64,000 nucleotides of DNA from Pseudanabaena frigida (GTDB lineage Bacteria; Cyanobacteriota; Cyanobacteriia; Pseudanabaenales; Pseudanabaenaceae). A program made the translations under genes and the position numbers. The notes under the pieces were generated by a model. The model was not told the origin of the DNA, searched no databases, and saw nothing but the letters and a program-made list of their open reading frames with translations. Positions 1 to 35,016 of the stretch are shown here, one piece after another (positions within the stretch are counted from its first letter, which is position 1; each line of letters opens with the position of its first letter). The DNA is taken from the NCBI GenBank assembly GCA_003242085.1, contig QBML01000013.1, forward strand, positions 62,001 to 126,000, in the 5' to 3' direction.

Positions 1-2
1 AA

Positions 3-761
3 CCATCACAAATTCAGCTTTTTCACGGTGGACATTTGTTTAGAACCACCAGCCAAGGAAAGCTCAACCTGCTAGGAACTGATGAACAAGGGCGGGATCA
101 GTTAACTCGACTACTACATGGCGGAAGAATTAGTTTACTCATAGGCTTTATTGGTACGACTATTTCCTATGTAATTGGTTGCATTGTAGGCGGTATTTCT
201 GGCTATATTGGCGGTTGGCTTGATGTGATTTTGATGCGCTTTGTCGAAATCCTGATGTCAGTTCCCTCAATATACTTATTAGTAGCATTAGCTGCAATTT
301 TGCCGCCACAAATCAGCAATACTCAACGATTCGCGTTAATCATTGCGATTATTTCTTTTGTATCATGGGCAGGACTAGCAAGAATTATCAGAGGGCAAGT
401 ATTGTCCATCAAACAGCAAACTTTTATCCTAGCGGCTCGCGCATCGGGAGCAAGCCCGTTGCGGATTATTGTGAATCATGTATTACCCCAGACCATCACC
501 TTCATTATTATTTCGGCAACCCTAGATATCCCCCGATTTATTGTTGTAGAAGCCGTCTTAAGCCTTGTTGGGCTCGGAATTCAGCCTCCAGATCCTTCAT
601 GGGGTAATATGCTATCTTTGTCTACTAACGCATCTATTGTGATCCTTCAACCTTGGTTAGTGTGGGCTCCTGCGCTAGCAATTGTGTTGACGGTGCTATC
701 ATTTAATCTCTTAGGTGATAGTTTGCGTGATGCCCTTGACCCAAAAAACATTAGGCAATAA
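3..761 (+). CDS. ABC transporter permease, DppC/OppC type (5' end missing)
   Basis: Inner-membrane permease subunit of a peptide/nickel-type ABC importer, partial: the frame is open from base 3 and the true start lies upstream of the window. The visible part begins just before the TDEQGRDQLTRLLHGGRISL segment typical of the family, which precedes the transmembrane core. About five hydrophobic segments follow. The cytoplasmic loop that docks the ATPase is recognisable around ARASGASPLRIIVNHVLPQT, and the protein ends with NLLGDSLRDALDPK, the usual OppC/DppC terminus. The substrate cannot be told from one subunit, and partner genes are outside the window. Confidence 0.92.
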   Translation, partial: PSQIQLFHGGHLFRTTSQGKLNLLGTDEQGRDQLTRLLHGGRISLLIGFIGTTISYVIGCIVGGISGYIGGWLDVILMRFVEILMSVPSIYLLVALAAILPPQISNTQRFALIIAIISFVSWAGLARIIRGQVLSIKQQTFILAARASGASPLRIIVNHVLPQTITFIIISATLDIPRFIVVEAVLSLVGLGIQPPDPSWGNMLSLSTNASIVILQPWLVWAPALAIVLTVLSFNLLGDSLRDALDPKNIRQ

Positions 762-1038
762 GCTTTAGGCAGTTTGCCCTAGGAAGTTTAAGGTTTAAAA
801 AAACGATGGGAAATAGTGGCTTTGGTGTCAGTTTTTTATGCAATAACTTTTAGAATGATTTCAGATGGTAGCAGCCGAAGAATCTCCAAAAAGTCTTAAA
901 ATATGTCTCTAAAATGCTCATGCAATTAGGTAGTATGAGATGTGGATCTAGACTATTTTGTATTTTCTATGACGGGTTTTTGCTCTTTCGTCATGTCAAT
1001 CTGAAAGTTAGCATCAGCAAAATAGGAGTATATTTAGC

Positions 1039-2727
1039 GTGCAGTACTTAGCGGAACTTCAAAAAACTCAAGCAGCTTTTGGATTAGGTGGTAACTCGTC
1101 TGTCCGTCTACTAGCACGTAATACGGGTGAAAATGTTTGGCAGCCGATTACTAACGAACAAGTATTGCCAATTCAAGATTCGAGTATGGCAAAAGACTTT
1201 AAAGACGGTCAGTTGTTAATTGCTGAAGTAACGGGTAGCAACCAAGTCCAAAGCATTCAAGATGCCACCAAAAAAATCGTCAATCTTTTGCAAGCTTACT
1301 CGCGATCGCAGGATAAGTACAAATCTGCTGAAGAAGAAGTCGAGCAATGGAAGCAGTCTCTTAATTTTCAAAGCCAAGAGCTACATCGTCGCGAGCAAGA
1401 ATTAGAACAAAAAGAAGTAGAACTAGAGCACCTTGATGCAAGACGGCAGGAAATTGAGGAGTTAGAAGGAAAGTTTGCGAAGGAACGCGATGAAATTGAG
1501 CAGTTGCGCAAAAATATTGAATTAGAGCGCGGTCAATTTGAAGCTAAGGCAGCAGCCTTAACTTCAGAGCAAGCCGATCACCTTAAAACTCTGATCCAAC
1601 AGCTGTCGACAAGTTTTACGAATCCAGATGCCCTCAGAGATAGGATTTATAGCGCACTCGATCTAATTAATAAGCGTCAAGAAGTATTGACAAAATTTTG
1701 GCAAAATTTGGATGGACTCAAAAACGAAGCTGAAAAGCAAAAGGGAATCTTAAGCAAATCAACAGAAGAGCTTAACAATCGCAAAAATCAATGGCAGCAA
1801 ACTCAAACTGCTCTAGCAGATGCGCAGGCTGAGTTGAAAGCTCAACGTGGCATTCTGAAATTGCAAGAGAACAATATGGCAATGTCCAGAGTGCAACTTG
1901 AGGCACAGATCGATCTTTACGAGCAAACCTCTAATGCGATCGAGTCATTTGGTGGTCCAGGTAGCATGGAGGTGCTTAGTCCAGAAGAAGAAAGTCGTTT
2001 ACAATCAATGTCTATCGAGGAGTTAGAATCAACGATTAAGGCTTTACAAGCTGATTTTAACAAGTTAGCTAATTATGTCAGCGCCCAAGAAGATGAGCTA
2101 GCCGGACTCGAAGGAGAAATAGCTGATTTGCAGAGTCAAGTAGAAACTGCCGATCAATTTGACCGCATTGAGCTAGAAAGCAATAAGGAATTTGCAGAAG
2201 AGCAGTACAAAGTTCTTGAAGATAGCGTGATGGGGACAAGGGTAAGTATGCAACAGCGCTTATCGTTGCTAAATCAGCAAAAAGCAGTTTTAGATCGACG
2301 CAAAGGCATTTCGGTTGAAGCTAGTCCAGTCCAAAGTTTACTGCCTCTCCTATCACAAATTGAGTCCCAAAAGAATCGTCAAGAGCAAGAATTGCGAAAG
2401 ATGGAGAGTCAAATTGAAGCAGTAAGAAATTACACACAACAACAGCAAGAAATGCTTGCCAAACAAACTCAAGATCATCAACAGCAGGATCAATCTATTC
2501 GTGCGTTAGAAACCCAACAACAAGAACGGATAAGAATCGTTGCCGAGCTGTTAGGACAAATTAGCGCCCAAGAGCAGCTTTTACGTCCTGTTCAAGATAT
2601 TGTCGATACATTGCGTCCACAACTGCAAGCCGCTGTTGAGGATCTGGGAGTTATGGCAAATGGCAGTAGTTCATCACAAATTCTCAATGATTTACAATCT
2701 ATCATTCAAAATTTAGTAGCTTCGTAA
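1039..2727 (+). CDS. hmpF: Pilus motility taxis protein HmpF
   Basis: A 562-residue protein matching HmpF, the cyanobacterial coiled-coil protein needed for type IV pilus-driven gliding and phototaxis; in Nostoc it concentrates at cell poles near the pilus machinery (family knowledge). The N-terminal 75 residues form a small globular segment opening MQYLAELQKTQ, typical of the family. From about residue 85 to 545 the protein is almost pure coiled coil, rich in E, Q, L and K. The start is GTG, chosen because it gives the family N-terminus. The 277-bp upstream spacer holds ATGACG/CGTCAT half-sites (969-974 and 989-994) that could be an operator. A pilT homologue lies about 3 kb downstream. Confidence 0.88.
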   Translation: MQYLAELQKTQAAFGLGGNSSVRLLARNTGENVWQPITNEQVLPIQDSSMAKDFKDGQLLIAEVTGSNQVQSIQDATKKIVNLLQAYSRSQDKYKSAEEEVEQWKQSLNFQSQELHRREQELEQKEVELEHLDARRQEIEELEGKFAKERDEIEQLRKNIELERGQFEAKAAALTSEQADHLKTLIQQLSTSFTNPDALRDRIYSALDLINKRQEVLTKFWQNLDGLKNEAEKQKGILSKSTEELNNRKNQWQQTQTALADAQAELKAQRGILKLQENNMAMSRVQLEAQIDLYEQTSNAIESFGGPGSMEVLSPEEESRLQSMSIEELESTIKALQADFNKLANYVSAQEDELAGLEGEIADLQSQVETADQFDRIELESNKEFAEEQYKVLEDSVMGTRVSMQQRLSLLNQQKAVLDRRKGISVEASPVQSLLPLLSQIESQKNRQEQELRKMESQIEAVRNYTQQQQEMLAKQTQDHQQQDQSIRALETQQQERIRIVAELLGQISAQEQLLRPVQDIVDTLRPQLQAAVEDLGVMANGSSSSQILNDLQSIIQNLVAS

Positions 2728-2729
2728 GT

Positions 2730-2762
2730 AATTAAGCGGTGCTTTGCACCGCTTAATTTTTA
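2730..2762. terminator. Bidirectional terminator between hmpF and the cyclophilin gene
   Basis: Perfect 13-bp stem AATTAAGCGGTGC with a TTT loop, followed by a T-rich tract on the plus strand; the A-rich left side gives the T-run on the minus strand. It lies between two convergent genes. Confidence 0.8.
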
Positions 2763-2767
2763 TTTTC

Positions 2768-3250
2768 TTATTCTTCAATTTTGACTGAGATAATCTTGTC
2801 ACCGCGACGAATCGCTTGAGCAACTTCAGTATCAGCTGTATATCCAAAAGCGGCATATTGTCCGTCTAAGAATGATGCGTCACCAAGAGTAATAAAAAAT
2901 TGACTTGTAGCACTATTTGGATCGTTAGTACGTGCCATCGAAAAGACACCTGCCTTATTGTGCTTGATTACAGGCTTCTTGCCGCCAGTTAAGATGTTAC
3001 CGACCGTTGCTTGAGTATCACCTTCTGCCCAGATTTCTAGTTTGATGCGATCGCCCGATCCACCAGTACCATTGCCAAGAGGATCTCCACCTTGGATTAC
3101 AAATCCAGGCTCGACACGATGAAAAGTCAATCCATCGTAAAAACCGTGCTTAGATAAATCAACGAAATTTTTAACAGTGAGTGGGGCATGTTGGTCGTCA
3201 AGCTCAACGTTAATTGTCCCTTTGGCGGTTTCCATTACAGCACGGATCAT
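2768..3250 (-). CDS. Peptidyl-prolyl cis-trans isomerase (cyclophilin)
   Basis: A 160-residue single-domain cyclophilin that catalyses cis-trans isomerisation of X-Pro bonds during folding. The active-site blocks are present: FHRVEPGFVIQGGDP (catalytic Arg and Phe) and FSMARTNDPNSATSQFF. There is no signal peptide, so it should be cytosolic, PpiB-like. It is convergent with hmpF and divergent from the phasin-like gene. Length and motif order are normal for the family. Confidence 0.93.
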   Translation of the reverse strand: MIRAVMETAKGTINVELDDQHAPLTVKNFVDLSKHGFYDGLTFHRVEPGFVIQGGDPLGNGTGGSGDRIKLEIWAEGDTQATVGNILTGGKKPVIKHNKAGVFSMARTNDPNSATSQFFITLGDASFLDGQYAAFGYTADTEVAQAIRRGDKIISVKIEE

Positions 3251-3332
3251 AAATAAATTTACCTGAAAGTTTTTGAAATTTAAATCAGTTTAAAGTATAG
3301 CAATCGCCAAGGCGGTTAAGGTATAAAACCCC

Positions 3333-3369
3333 AAAAGCAGAGGCAATTCATAAATTGCCCCTGCTTTTG
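3333..3369. repeat. Inverted repeat in a divergent promoter region
   Basis: AAAAGCAGAGGCAATT pairs with AATTGCCCCTGCTTTT, with one mismatch, and is followed on the plus strand by GTTTAGT. It lies between divergent start codons, so it is not a normal terminator; it may be a dispersed hairpin or a leader structure of the phasin-rsmI transcript. Confidence 0.5.
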
Positions 3370-3417
3370 TTTAGTATGATGGAGTAATAGATTCAGCTTT
3401 AAGGATCGCAAATATTT

Positions 3418-32673: not shown

Positions 32674-33744
32674 ATGAGCGATGAGTTGAACAAAATTTTT
32701 GAAAATGATCAGAAAAAATATCGAGTTTTACAGTCTGTGTACAATCTCTCTAATCCAGACAAATTTGTTGGGGTAAGTGCTAAACAAGTTGCTGATTTTA
32801 CACAAATCCCTATGTCTGAGGCTAAAGAAATATTGAATAGGCTATGTGATTTTGATGAATTAATTGATTGTCCTACGAACACTAGTGGATTTATGAGTAA
32901 TCATAAGACGATAGATAAGATTAAACAATATAAAAAATTAGAGATTGAAGAAATTCTTAGGGAGTTTAGGCAAATTGCAAGTGACCTAATTCATATGAAT
33001 TCCTACGATGAAATGAGCTACTTAAAACGATTTATCAATTTTATAGAGAGCAAACCTATTATCTTCGATTTTATACAAGATAATAATCGGGTGAGACAAT
33101 TTGAAATTGAGCGTGTTATTGATAGTTGTGTACAGCTTGTTCATACTTATGTTCAGATTCCTAAAGGTAAAAATGAAGAGATTGCTTTTACTTATCAACT
33201 ACTAAAATATGGTCTAGAAAAATTTAATGCTTACTATGTATTTACGATTCAGATTCCAGCCTATGGAAGTCGTGAAGAAGGAGTGTTAAAATTTAATAAG
33301 ACTATAGTTAGCTATTTTTGTAACCATATTGATCACTACTTGACAACAATGTTAAATAAACTTGGGGCTGATGAACAAAGTTATCTAAATTCAACTACTC
33401 AAAACCTTAACTTTAATGGTAATGTTGGCGCAGTTCAAACTGGCAATCATAATATTGCTCATGTAACCCAAAATAATTATTCATCACAAAGTCTTGTTGA
33501 TGCTGCTAAGGAAATTCAGGAACTTCTAGAAAACCTAGCTCAAATCTATCCAACTAATACTCTGTCTGACAAGATGGTAGTTGTAACTAAAGCAGTTGAA
33601 CAAATCGAAAATAATCGATCTTTAAAAGAACGGACAGTTGGAGCGCTTAAATCTGCTGGGGTCGAGGGGTTTAAAGAACTTATCGATAATCCACTAATCA
33701 ATATTTTGATGGCAGCAATCGAAGGTTGGAAAGAAGGTAAATAA
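32674..33744 (+). CDS. Unknown protein with winged-helix-like head and GAVQTGN motif (356 aa)
   Basis: Not recognised as a named family. Residues ~15-70 look like a winged helix (AKQVADFTQIPMSEAKEILNRL). Residues 85-240 are mostly helical. VGAVQTGNHNIAHVTQNN at 251-268 is a beta-rich motif almost shared with the next gene. The C-terminal 75 residues (VVVTKAVEQIENNRSLKERTVGAL...NPLINILMAAIEGWKEG) resemble tails I recall from cyanobacterial multi-domain proteins of unknown role. The gene is AT-rich and has no HIP1 octamer, unlike its chromosomal neighbours. The next gene starts 13 bp downstream, so the two form an operon. Confidence 0.7.
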   Translation: MSDELNKIFENDQKKYRVLQSVYNLSNPDKFVGVSAKQVADFTQIPMSEAKEILNRLCDFDELIDCPTNTSGFMSNHKTIDKIKQYKKLEIEEILREFRQIASDLIHMNSYDEMSYLKRFINFIESKPIIFDFIQDNNRVRQFEIERVIDSCVQLVHTYVQIPKGKNEEIAFTYQLLKYGLEKFNAYYVFTIQIPAYGSREEGVLKFNKTIVSYFCNHIDHYLTTMLNKLGADEQSYLNSTTQNLNFNGNVGAVQTGNHNIAHVTQNNYSSQSLVDAAKEIQELLENLAQIYPTNTLSDKMVVVTKAVEQIENNRSLKERTVGALKSAGVEGFKELIDNPLINILMAAIEGWKEGK

Positions 33745-33757
33745 GCAACTCAAAGTT

Positions 33758-34378
33758 ATGACTGAAGAATTTTTCAACATCCAGCAAGTTAAACAACTTG
33801 AAATACTGAAATTTATCTGGAAAGATACAAATGGACGAGCAGATAGAGCTTCTGAATTATCTGAGATTTGTAAAGAGATACACGTATCTGAGACAGATAT
33901 TATTCCTCTTCTTAGTTTTCTTGAGAAGTCTTCTTTAATTACAGTACATGGAAATCTGTTGTCTCAAGTTAATGGTATTCAGATTACAAAATCAGGTATA
34001 GAAAAAGTTATAAATAGTCTGAATGCAACAAACAAAACTTCTTCTCAGGTTGTTAATATTAACGCTGAGAAGATAGGAGCAGTTCAAACTGGAAACTACA
34101 ATACAGCTAATGTCACACAGAATTTTGGTGACGAAGTTGCTGAAATTTTAAAAGAGATCGGTTTTCTCCGAGAACAAGTCATTACACTATCAGTTGAAAG
34201 ACAAAATATTGCTAACATGGCACTCAACGACCTTGAATCCGCAGTATCAGATCCTTCATTGATTGATAAAGTAAAAATTAATCTATGGACTCTTTGGGGT
34301 ATTGGACAAAATGTTGTAGCCTTTGCAAATCAGCTTACCGCAACGGCAGAGAGGTTTGGCGTTCATTTTCACAGTTAG
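33758..34378 (+). CDS. Unknown protein with winged-helix-like head and GAVQTGN motif (206 aa)
   Basis: Partner of the preceding gene. Residues 10-90 read as a winged-helix domain (ASELSEICKEIHVSETDIIPLL...LEKSSLITVHGNLL). The motif IGAVQTGNYNTANVTQNF occupies 106-123. A C-terminal helical domain follows (EILKEIGFLREQVITL...ALNDLESAVSDPSLIDKVK...AFANQLTATAERFGV). Only the motif and the layout are shared with the 356-residue protein; the tails differ. AT-rich and without the HIP1 octamer. The pair sits between toxin-antitoxin genes and gene remnants in an island, which suggests a defence or regulatory role; this is inference. Confidence 0.7.
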   Translation: MTEEFFNIQQVKQLEILKFIWKDTNGRADRASELSEICKEIHVSETDIIPLLSFLEKSSLITVHGNLLSQVNGIQITKSGIEKVINSLNATNKTSSQVVNINAEKIGAVQTGNYNTANVTQNFGDEVAEILKEIGFLREQVITLSVERQNIANMALNDLESAVSDPSLIDKVKINLWTLWGIGQNVVAFANQLTATAERFGVHFHS

Positions 34379-34459: not shown

Positions 34460-34666
34460 ATGAATACAAAACTAGTTGATTCAATTGTGCAAATAGTTTT
34501 ATCTCTAACCAAAGAAGAACAAGATCTTTTAACCGAAAGATTGTTTTATTCCTTGTCTGAACCATCTACCCACGAACTAGCTCAGCTAGTTCAAGCTGGT
34601 GGCGCATTCAAATTTCTTGACGATGAGCCAGATTTATATACCCTTACGGACGGAGAACCAGTCTAG
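34460..34666 (+). CDS. Small antitoxin of a MazEF-type pair
   Basis: The 68-residue protein is acidic and helical (IVQIVLSLTKEEQDLLTERL, then DDEPDLYTL). Its last base overlaps the GTG start of the MazF-like toxin (TAGTG), the usual coupling in toxin-antitoxin operons. It lacks an obvious AbrB or ribbon-helix-helix DNA-binding head, so identity as antitoxin rests on context. Confidence 0.65.
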   Translation: MNTKLVDSIVQIVLSLTKEEQDLLTERLFYSLSEPSTHELAQLVQAGGAFKFLDDEPDLYTLTDGEPV

Positions 34667-35016
34667 TGAATAAGGGTGATATTGTTTTGGTTCCATTCCC
34701 ATTTACAGATCTCAGTCAAAACAAGCTGAGACCTGCGGTTGTCCTATGGTCTACGTCTACAAGTAATGACATTACTCTTTGCTTTGTCTCATCACAAAGT
34801 ATTGAGAATTTAAGTGAAGGCGAATTTATAATCCATTCATCTGATGCGGAATTTAGGAATACAGGTTTAAAAGTTGTATCCAAGGTGAGAGTTACTAGAA
34901 TTGTTACAATTGAGCGATCGCTGATTTTAAGGCGACTAGGCAAATTAAGCAGCAAACACGTTCAACAATTAAATTTAGCCATGATTCAGGTATTTAGGCT
35001 TTTAGATAGTCAGTAA
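34666..35016 (+). CDS. MazF/PemK-family mRNA interferase toxin
   Basis: A 116-residue MazF/PemK fold. The N-terminus reads NKGDIVLVPFPFTDLSQNKLRPAVVL, matching the conserved GDIV...FPFtD...KxRPavVl pattern. A conserved strand with VRVTRIVTIERSLI-type sequence follows. The start is GTG, overlapping the antitoxin stop by one base. The toxin should cut single-stranded mRNA at specific short sites. It lies within the narB-flanked island, and a HIP1-like site appears only near its 3' end. Confidence 0.85.
   Translation: MNKGDIVLVPFPFTDLSQNKLRPAVVLWSTSTSNDITLCFVSSQSIENLSEGEFIIHSSDAEFRNTGLKVVSKVRVTRIVTIERSLILRRLGKLSSKHVQQLNLAMIQVFRLLDSQ

Follow-up and report, generated by a model that had tools for sequence, protein, structure and literature searches.

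Two neighboring genes, designated P1 and P2, lie 13 bp apart in a 64-kb stretch of Pseudanabaena frigida DNA (contig QBML01000013.1, positions 62,001 to 126,000; hereafter, the window) and encode proteins of 356 and 206 aa that share the motif GAVQTGNxNxAxVTQN, with identity at 13 of 16 core positions. We propose that the two proteins may constitute an abortive-infection-like module of the AbiT/PDC-M14 kind, assembled through a matched beta- or amyloid-like tag and resembling BASS systems without the NLR component. We infer assembly, amyloid nature and a role in defense from sequence comparisons, and we consider the chances of this reading to be about even. P1 (32674..33744, on the forward strand like all features given below) is composed of a head that may be a winged helix (32674..32928, residues 1-85), a PDC-M14B-like core recognized by a PADLOC profile (32929..33393, about residues 86-240), the motif GNVGAVQTGNHNIAHVTQNN (33418..33477, residues 249-268) and a predicted helical tail, tail A (33478..33741, residues 269-356). 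P2 (33758..34378) follows the same head-motif-tail layout, the core being an addition of P1, with a possible winged-helix head (33758..34033, about residues 1-92), the motif EKIGAVQTGNYNTANVTQNF (34067..34126, residues 104-123) and tail B (34127..34375, residues 124-206).

The near-identity of the two motifs, reported in a preliminary description of this locus, is real. Smith-Waterman alignment of P1 with P2 scores 86, whereas 5000 shuffles of P2 reached no more than 72. When P2 was searched against the complete genome (E <= 1), P1 was the sole non-self match, at the motif (E 6.2e-4). The stretches GNVGAVQTGNHNIAHVTQNN and EKIGAVQTGNYNTANVTQNF, which score 77 against each other, agree at 13 of 20 residues, all of them inside the central 16. 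Six of these 13 residues are encoded by different codons in the two genes, indicating that the likeness is no fresh copy and has been maintained at the protein level. The preliminary description was likewise correct on the coordinates, the gap and the translations, on the distinctness of the two tails, on the AT-richness of both genes (GC 0.32 in P1 and 0.35 in P2, against 0.42 in the window) and, as far as examined with Pfam scans of P1 and P2, in which nothing exceeded the cut-off, on the absence of a catalytic motif. Neither gene contains the HIP1 sequence GCGATCGC, as had also been stated; since the 95 sites in the 64 kb of the window lead to an expectation of about 2.5 in the pair, this absence alone tells little.

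The idea that the two proteins assemble through the shared motif finds support in the matching motifs of adjacent genes at many other loci, from which binding itself may be surmised. In ten pairs whose members and motif borders were chosen by eye (the window, L018, L020, L064, L065, L067, L102, L106, L118 and L122), the scores between own partners summed to 562, compared to a permuted mean of 332 and a permuted maximum of 604 (p 7e-5; p 1.5e-4 after removal of the near-duplicate L065). A wider comparison was based on the profile of the P1 motif plus tail A, which is present at 103 places in 50 of 386 cyanobacterial genomes; as judged by eye, tail A follows a short N/Q/G-rich stretch in most of 29 listed frames. 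Of these places, 46 with open frames of no more than about 250 aa were picked by hand, some short ones being left out; 45 of them (L202, which had no tail frame, was dropped), together with the window, L018 and L020, provided 48 tail-A loci, in which each motif region was scored against its own neighbors and the neighbors of all loci (181 proteins). When single proteins were ranked, the own neighbor came first in 17 of the 48 loci and among the top four in 34. When whole loci were ranked, the own one was best in 19/48, and in 20/37 with one locus kept per motif cluster, a setting in which near-copies no longer compete. A control with the final 55 aa of these proteins gave 1/48 and 1/37, and shuffled motifs gave 0 in both settings (permutation p <= 5e-5).

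The own score was at least 50 in 30 of the 48 tail-A loci, and in 28 of these both genes lie on the same strand. In 27 of the 30, the match falls near an end of the partner, either starting before residue 60 and ending before residue 100 or ending within 75 residues of the C-terminus, the exceptions being the window, L020 and L215. Motif types vary from locus to locus, and the tag probably lets partner proteins recognize each other; tag-tag binding would be the simplest cause of matching tags in partner genes. The motif has turned out to be an element of a common kind, one half of the outcome that the preliminary description would have held against its proposal, but its co-occurrence in adjacent genes, the lack of which formed the other half, is frequent. 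The strongest tag match (score 170; best score from other loci, 46) was observed at L174:263-1986, between a tail-A protein of 145 aa and a protein of 358 aa that has no Pfam match (E 1e-4).

The tagged partners belong to diverse families. We scanned 29 partners, namely the 34 of rank four or better minus those of the window, L018, L020, L181 and L182, and among the best 25 of 58 families Pfam returned DUF6232 (8), HEAT_2 (7), NB-ARC (4), NACHT (4) and pentapeptide (2), counts that may overlap. Nine small partners of about 167-198 aa, paired with tail-A proteins, bear the tag at the C-terminus (L178, L204, L206, L198, L209, L197, L211, L175 and L176); the one in L206 has no Pfam match, and DUF6232 is a family without known function. 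A second tagged pair was identified in the genome of the window itself (L187, contig C66, about 2-3372), where a HEAT-repeat protein, present as a 987-aa piece, ends in VGQVVENLTVQRDNIATQNN and its 124-aa neighbor starts with VGQVIAGDQTVTGDNIGTQNN followed by tail A. Reading of its sequence suggests an NTPase-like start for the HEAT protein, for which Pfam gave no NTPase domain. The two C66 tags score 62 against each other and 17-42 against those of P1 and P2. One genome therefore holds two pairs with different tags.

Kinship with a defense candidate was seen in P1, whose residues 86-319, spanning the core, the motif and part of the tail, match the PADLOC candidate defense protein PDC-M14B (E 5.8e-42); Pfam, NCBIfam and PHROGs gave no family above noise for P1. 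At E <= 0.001 the PDC-M14B profile matches in 48 of 339 sampled cyanobacterial genomes, but core and tail together (profile positions 3-228) are covered only in the genome of the window, the remaining 47 matching in part. The P1 core aligns with the M14B proteins of a Lysinibacillus plasmid (P0004) and of a viral contig (L172), each of which encodes a PDC-M14A/PDC-M14B pair. Like PDC-M14, a phage-defense candidate in PADLOC, the window thus holds a PDC-M14B protein; unlike it, P1 has an extra head and no PDC-M14A was matched in P2, the toxin gene downstream or two other small neighbors. The locus had been presented as a candidate undescribed system, a designation that must be qualified, given that P1 is a PDC-M14B relative and that an AbiTii protein takes the position of P2 in the nearest pair known to us, although P2 is without a family above noise.

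This nearest pair is located on a plasmid of Synechococcus PCC 7502. Its first protein, P0001, consists of a head 44% identical to that of P1, the motif GAVQNGDRNIAHVTQN and tail A, and it adjoins P0002, an AbiTii protein (PF18864, E 3e-45) with GAVQTGRENTANVNQ close to its end. On a plasmid of Nostoc commune SO-36, an AbiTii protein with a tail-B-like end (P0006) adjoins a protein with a P2-like head and tail A (P0005), both bearing a motif of another type, VAGxxxxG. The sequences of these pairs indicate that similar parts have been re-shuffled and that the neighbors in each pair share a tag. The survey of other genomes did not recover the exact combination of P1 and P2 outside this genome, but related pairs with matching motifs are frequent.

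AbiTi and AbiTii form a two-gene abortive-infection pair that gives phage resistance. The likeness to AbiT lies in two adjacent genes with a matching motif, a feature found here and outside the official definition of the system. We assembled 49 AbiTii loci: 9 from cyanobacterial genomes or plasmids, 26 from a named genome collection and 14 from plasmids. Of ten cyanobacterial genomes with AbiTii, three weak ones in which no motif was seen (G026, G000 and G015) were left out. In 37 of the 49 loci the AbiTii protein is 276-403 aa long and, as judged by eye, nearly all of these combine the AbiTii domain, an N/Q/G motif and a tail in one chain, L070 excepted; examples of the motif are SQIQQGNQNSTQQ, SQIQIGSNSS and LQVGNYNS. 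Eight of the 12 shorter proteins (L018, L064, L065, L067, L102, L106, L118 and L122) end shortly after the motif and have a neighbor with a matching motif. A further one, L120, has its partner out of frame, and the last three short proteins (L123, L125 and L127) were left unclassed in the table, as was the longer L070. The PADLOC AbiTi model matches the partners in L102 and L106 over motif and tail (E 2.7e-40 and 2.6e-49); the split AbiTii ends in the motif, and the AbiTi model begins at the matching motif and continues into the helical tail. The same model matches motif and tail of the one-chain AbiTii proteins in L103 (E 6.5e-14) and L107 (E 1.6e-10), where the PDC-M14B models match too; it has no match to the partners in L064, L065, L067, L118 and L122. 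Profile alignment of AbiTii-family tails with the Lysinibacillus M14B tail gives E 6e-7 and a probability of 86%. From these matches, AbiTi seems to be the same module as the C-terminal regions of one-chain AbiTii and of PDC-M14B.

Other features of the AbiTii family were also recorded. The partner in L118 (L118:2824-2997), in a locus related to L120, is a 57-aa protein made of a tag and a very hydrophobic helix (KD 2.9), lying between genes that by eye are of restriction type. The partner in L122 (L122:496-864) weakly matches PADLOC HEC-01B (E 9e-4), a hint of the same module in other candidate systems. Three genomes of the genus, including that of the window (L069, C22:121352-121735; L068; L071), encode a short AbiTii-like protein without visible motif, possibly an AbiTii domain that has been domesticated, in surroundings that by eye are alike and not defense-like. 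The AbiTii protein P0002 had no match in phages, and short peptide patterns revealed no relatives of P1, P2, P0004 or the AbiTii alignment A2 in viral contigs, the single hit being the M14A/M14B pair of L172 mentioned above, found with A4. In PMC3710099, AbiTii is presented as an Abi-system domain of the alpha+beta type that has a conserved glutamate. In a structural model of one-chain AbiTii (19 sequences, pLDDT 84.8), the AbiTii domain is ordered, the motif lacks structure (below 50 at residues 192-212) and the tail consists of four helices. Foldseek comparison of the whole model to the PDB yielded no convincing relative (best E 0.41), and the best VIA-align result (Z 9.1) mainly reflects the four-helix tail, a common arrangement to which many bundles are alike.

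P1 and P2 also depart from AbiT. Neither contains an AbiTii domain (PF18864; Pfam, E <= 10), both have an extra head, and P2 and its motif-tail part have no match to the AbiTi model PDLC02333. P2 is without a family above noise in Pfam, NCBIfam, PHROGs and PADLOC, and so is its motif-tail part with respect to the PADLOC AbiTi model. Matches to P2 at E <= 0.001 occur in three of 38 genomes of the order (its own; G006, through the PCC 7502 plasmid; and a remnant in G032), and at E <= 0.01 in seven of 386 genomes of the phylum, its own included, the six others being weak and partial. The remnant in the sister species G032 (L009:1501-1608) covers 35 aa of the P2 tail within a 38-aa frame, on a contig other than that of the narB-like gene discussed below. 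The P2 head is 29% identical to that of the Nostoc protein P0005, and its profile, compared to solved structures, finds helix-turn-helix (HTH) regions of CAP at best (E 0.14 or worse); the P1 head matches 8vd6 (E 0.0016) and 5vu3 (E 1.4) and no others. The winged-helix heads attributed to both proteins are plausible but putative; the CAP HTH matches for P2 are weak, and a P1 model built from two sequences is unusable (pLDDT 40.5). Tail B and the end of P0006, the AbiTii protein from Nostoc, look alike by eye, and a profile built from these two tails aligns with AbiTii-family tails in hhalign (E 3e-4, with a full-length probability of 16% and a local one of 55%). In P0001 and P0006, the motif-tail parts, which contain tail A and tail B, respectively, are matched by PDC-M14B models (E 1e-4 and 7.6e-6).

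The one-chain forms bear on a further explanation, according to which P1 and P2 derive from a single gene, by duplication or by fission with a repeated linker, leaving a motif without a binding role and tails that act separately. Chains that unite AbiTii, motif and tail show fission to be possible; motif types track lineages; and the heads of P1 and P2 are perhaps distantly related, since 89 columns align (hhalign E 3e-4, probability 18%). Set against this common origin are the conservation of the core motif at the protein level in spite of the codon changes described above and the partners from different families that elsewhere still match the tag, and we consider it improbable.

The wording of the motif invites comparison with amyloid-type systems. 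Curlin repeats follow the spacing Q-x-G-x-x-N-x-A-x-V-x-Q, which the P1 and P2 motifs both fit exactly, and the V-Q-x-G-x-x-N wording of both motifs resembles that of curlin and of the RHIM/PP motif. Like BASS systems, in which NLR and Bell proteins are paired, the pair repeats a short motif in adjacent genes, and at some tail-A loci the partner is an NB-ARC or NACHT protein. In contrast, neither P1 nor P2 has a NACHT or NB-ARC match in Pfam, and instead of the C-terminal motif order of Bell proteins their motif is internal, with a helical domain after it. The AbiTii model has a four-helix bundle as its tail, an arrangement that PMC9815663 gives for the central part of HeLo-type domains. For amyloid signaling motifs, occurrence in both members of adjacent NLR-type pairs and conserved N/Q and G residues are described in passages of PMC7889193 and PMC7885112, and shared motifs are used in bacterial NLR pairs (PMC7889193, PMC9815663 and PMC7885112, each in part). 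By analogy, the N/Q/G content, the VQxG wording and these shared motifs suggest that binding of the tags would be amyloid-like.

EADs provide a second precedent: adjacent genes each carry the same small domain, and the copies tend to be closest to one another within a locus (parts of PMC7159879). They resemble the present pairs in the homotypic coupling of adjacent genes but are folded domains, whereas the tag here has about 20 residues, and the matches that Pfam listed for P1 and P2 (E <= 10) include no EAD. TRADD-N was rejected as a candidate for the tail, its RRM-type fold (PMC7159879) contrasting with the helical tail found here. Since EADs already couple adjacent genes homotypically, the principle is not new, nor is the method of aligning neighbors, given that motif discovery by aligning proteins of neighboring genes is mentioned in part of PMC8086366. 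Our literature searches on PDC-M14, bacterial RHIM, AbiT/amyloid and curlin, the original BASS paper lying outside their scope, yielded no description of the tag-plus-tail module or its link to AbiT.

The pair sits downstream of a gene that we take to be narB-like and that is present in 24 of 26 genomes of the genus. In 20 of the 23 relatives with this gene we retrieved the following 5-6 kb, approximately, and found neither P1 nor P2 in these 20 relatives; in L230, genes from beyond the island of the window lie within about 200 bp after the narB-like gene. The site is variable, being empty or otherwise filled in relatives. In L224, from a sister species in the same genus, it holds another tagged module, with a gene that is NTPase-like by eye and proteins of 125 and 130 aa that carry NINAPVGQLNTGKVDVQGDSIG and NFNAAVGQIITGDISVSGDNIG with a tail (mutual score 77). 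Such variability, together with nearest relatives that reside on plasmids, would suit mobile-island cargo with a role other than defense, for example in element maintenance or transcription control. The filing of its kin AbiTi/AbiTii and PDC-M14B as defense or candidate defense in PADLOC speaks against this, and we hold cargo of this kind to be very improbable; by association with these kin modules, a defense role of the pair is likely. Downstream of P2 lie a small gene, a possible antitoxin (34460..34666), and a PemK/MazF-like toxin gene (34666..35016), neighbors outside the pair that had been reported as MazEF. The toxin is real (PF02452, E 9.9e-14), but the small gene preceding it has no Pfam or PADLOC family.

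Several results weigh against a module assembled by an amyloid-like tag. The strict RHIM core, given as G-(I,V)-Q-(I,V)-G in part of PMC7885112, is absent, P1 and P2 having A-V-Q-T-G in place of G-phi-Q-phi-G, so that RHIM, BASS3 and the PP motif were rejected; membership in the curlin family was rejected as well, as PF07012 has no match in the whole genome (E <= 10) with a positive E. coli control. In the ten-pair test the own partner tops its row in just 5/10, because related loci have a common motif type, and in 14/48 tail-A loci the own neighbor ranks seventh or worse. The tag of the 130-aa protein in L224 reaches 108 when compared to that of the C66 tail-A protein, against 77 with its own partner, showing that tag types recur within the genus; where motif types are common within lineages, matching could partly be shared ancestry, and the claim of insulation between tags is weak. 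Inspection of the PDC-M14A/M14B pairs revealed no common tag, and the split AbiTii pair of Enterococcus (L219) has no shared motif. P2 has no close homolog in the genomes searched, and profile comparison of tail A with tail B, the AbiTii tails and the Lysinibacillus M14B tail gave probabilities of 0.2-1.3%, which do not join them; the tails of the window thus join the AbiT/M14B module less firmly. Finally, the disorder of the motif predicted in a single AbiTii chain would suit a tag for assembly and, just as well, an ordinary linker.

Some of these points would also agree with an ordinary heteromer interface, in which each chain contributes one strand-turn-strand element to a small fixed complex, such as a toxin-antitoxin-like repressor pair with DNA-binding heads, and no amyloid-like or seeded assembly takes place. 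The lack of the strict core is consistent with such an interface, as are the adjoining PemK/MazF-type toxin and heads that could both bind DNA, with weak HTH matches for P2. Yet similar tags join HEAT, NB-ARC, NACHT, DUF6232 and pentapeptide proteins, and the amyloid signaling known for motifs of NLR-type pairs argues in the other direction, making a plain heteromer rather unlikely in our judgment.

If P1 and P2 do form a tag-assembled abortive-infection module, their heads (DNA-binding-like with the PDC-M14B core in P1, DNA-binding-like in P2) would sense or restrain. Once set off, perhaps by an infecting phage, the tags would assemble and bring the helical tails together, the motif acting as a strand-turn-strand element that stacks the partner chains and may serve as an amyloid-like seed. 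Growth would then be halted, or the cell damaged, by the tails or the M14B core, growth arrest or death being the outcome predicted from the kinship to AbiTi/AbiTii and PDC-M14B. A tag sequence specific to the locus would help to separate parallel modules inside one cell.

More tentatively, and with somewhat less than even confidence, these data raise the possibility of a wide class of AbiT, PDC-M14B-like, NLR-, DUF6232- and pentapeptide-linked pairs in which a locus-specific amyloid-like address tag precedes a helical output domain, allowing suicide circuits to operate side by side with little cross-talk; the pair in the window would be an NLR-free version that wires two DNA-binding-like proteins. 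Were this the case, AbiT would gain a hypothesis at the level of mechanism, amyloid-type signaling would reach beyond NLR-Bell pairs, and matching tags in adjacent genes would offer a simple rule for finding the partners of uncharacterized proteins. With two differently tagged pairs in one genome, the specificity of the tags is open to direct testing by swapping them.

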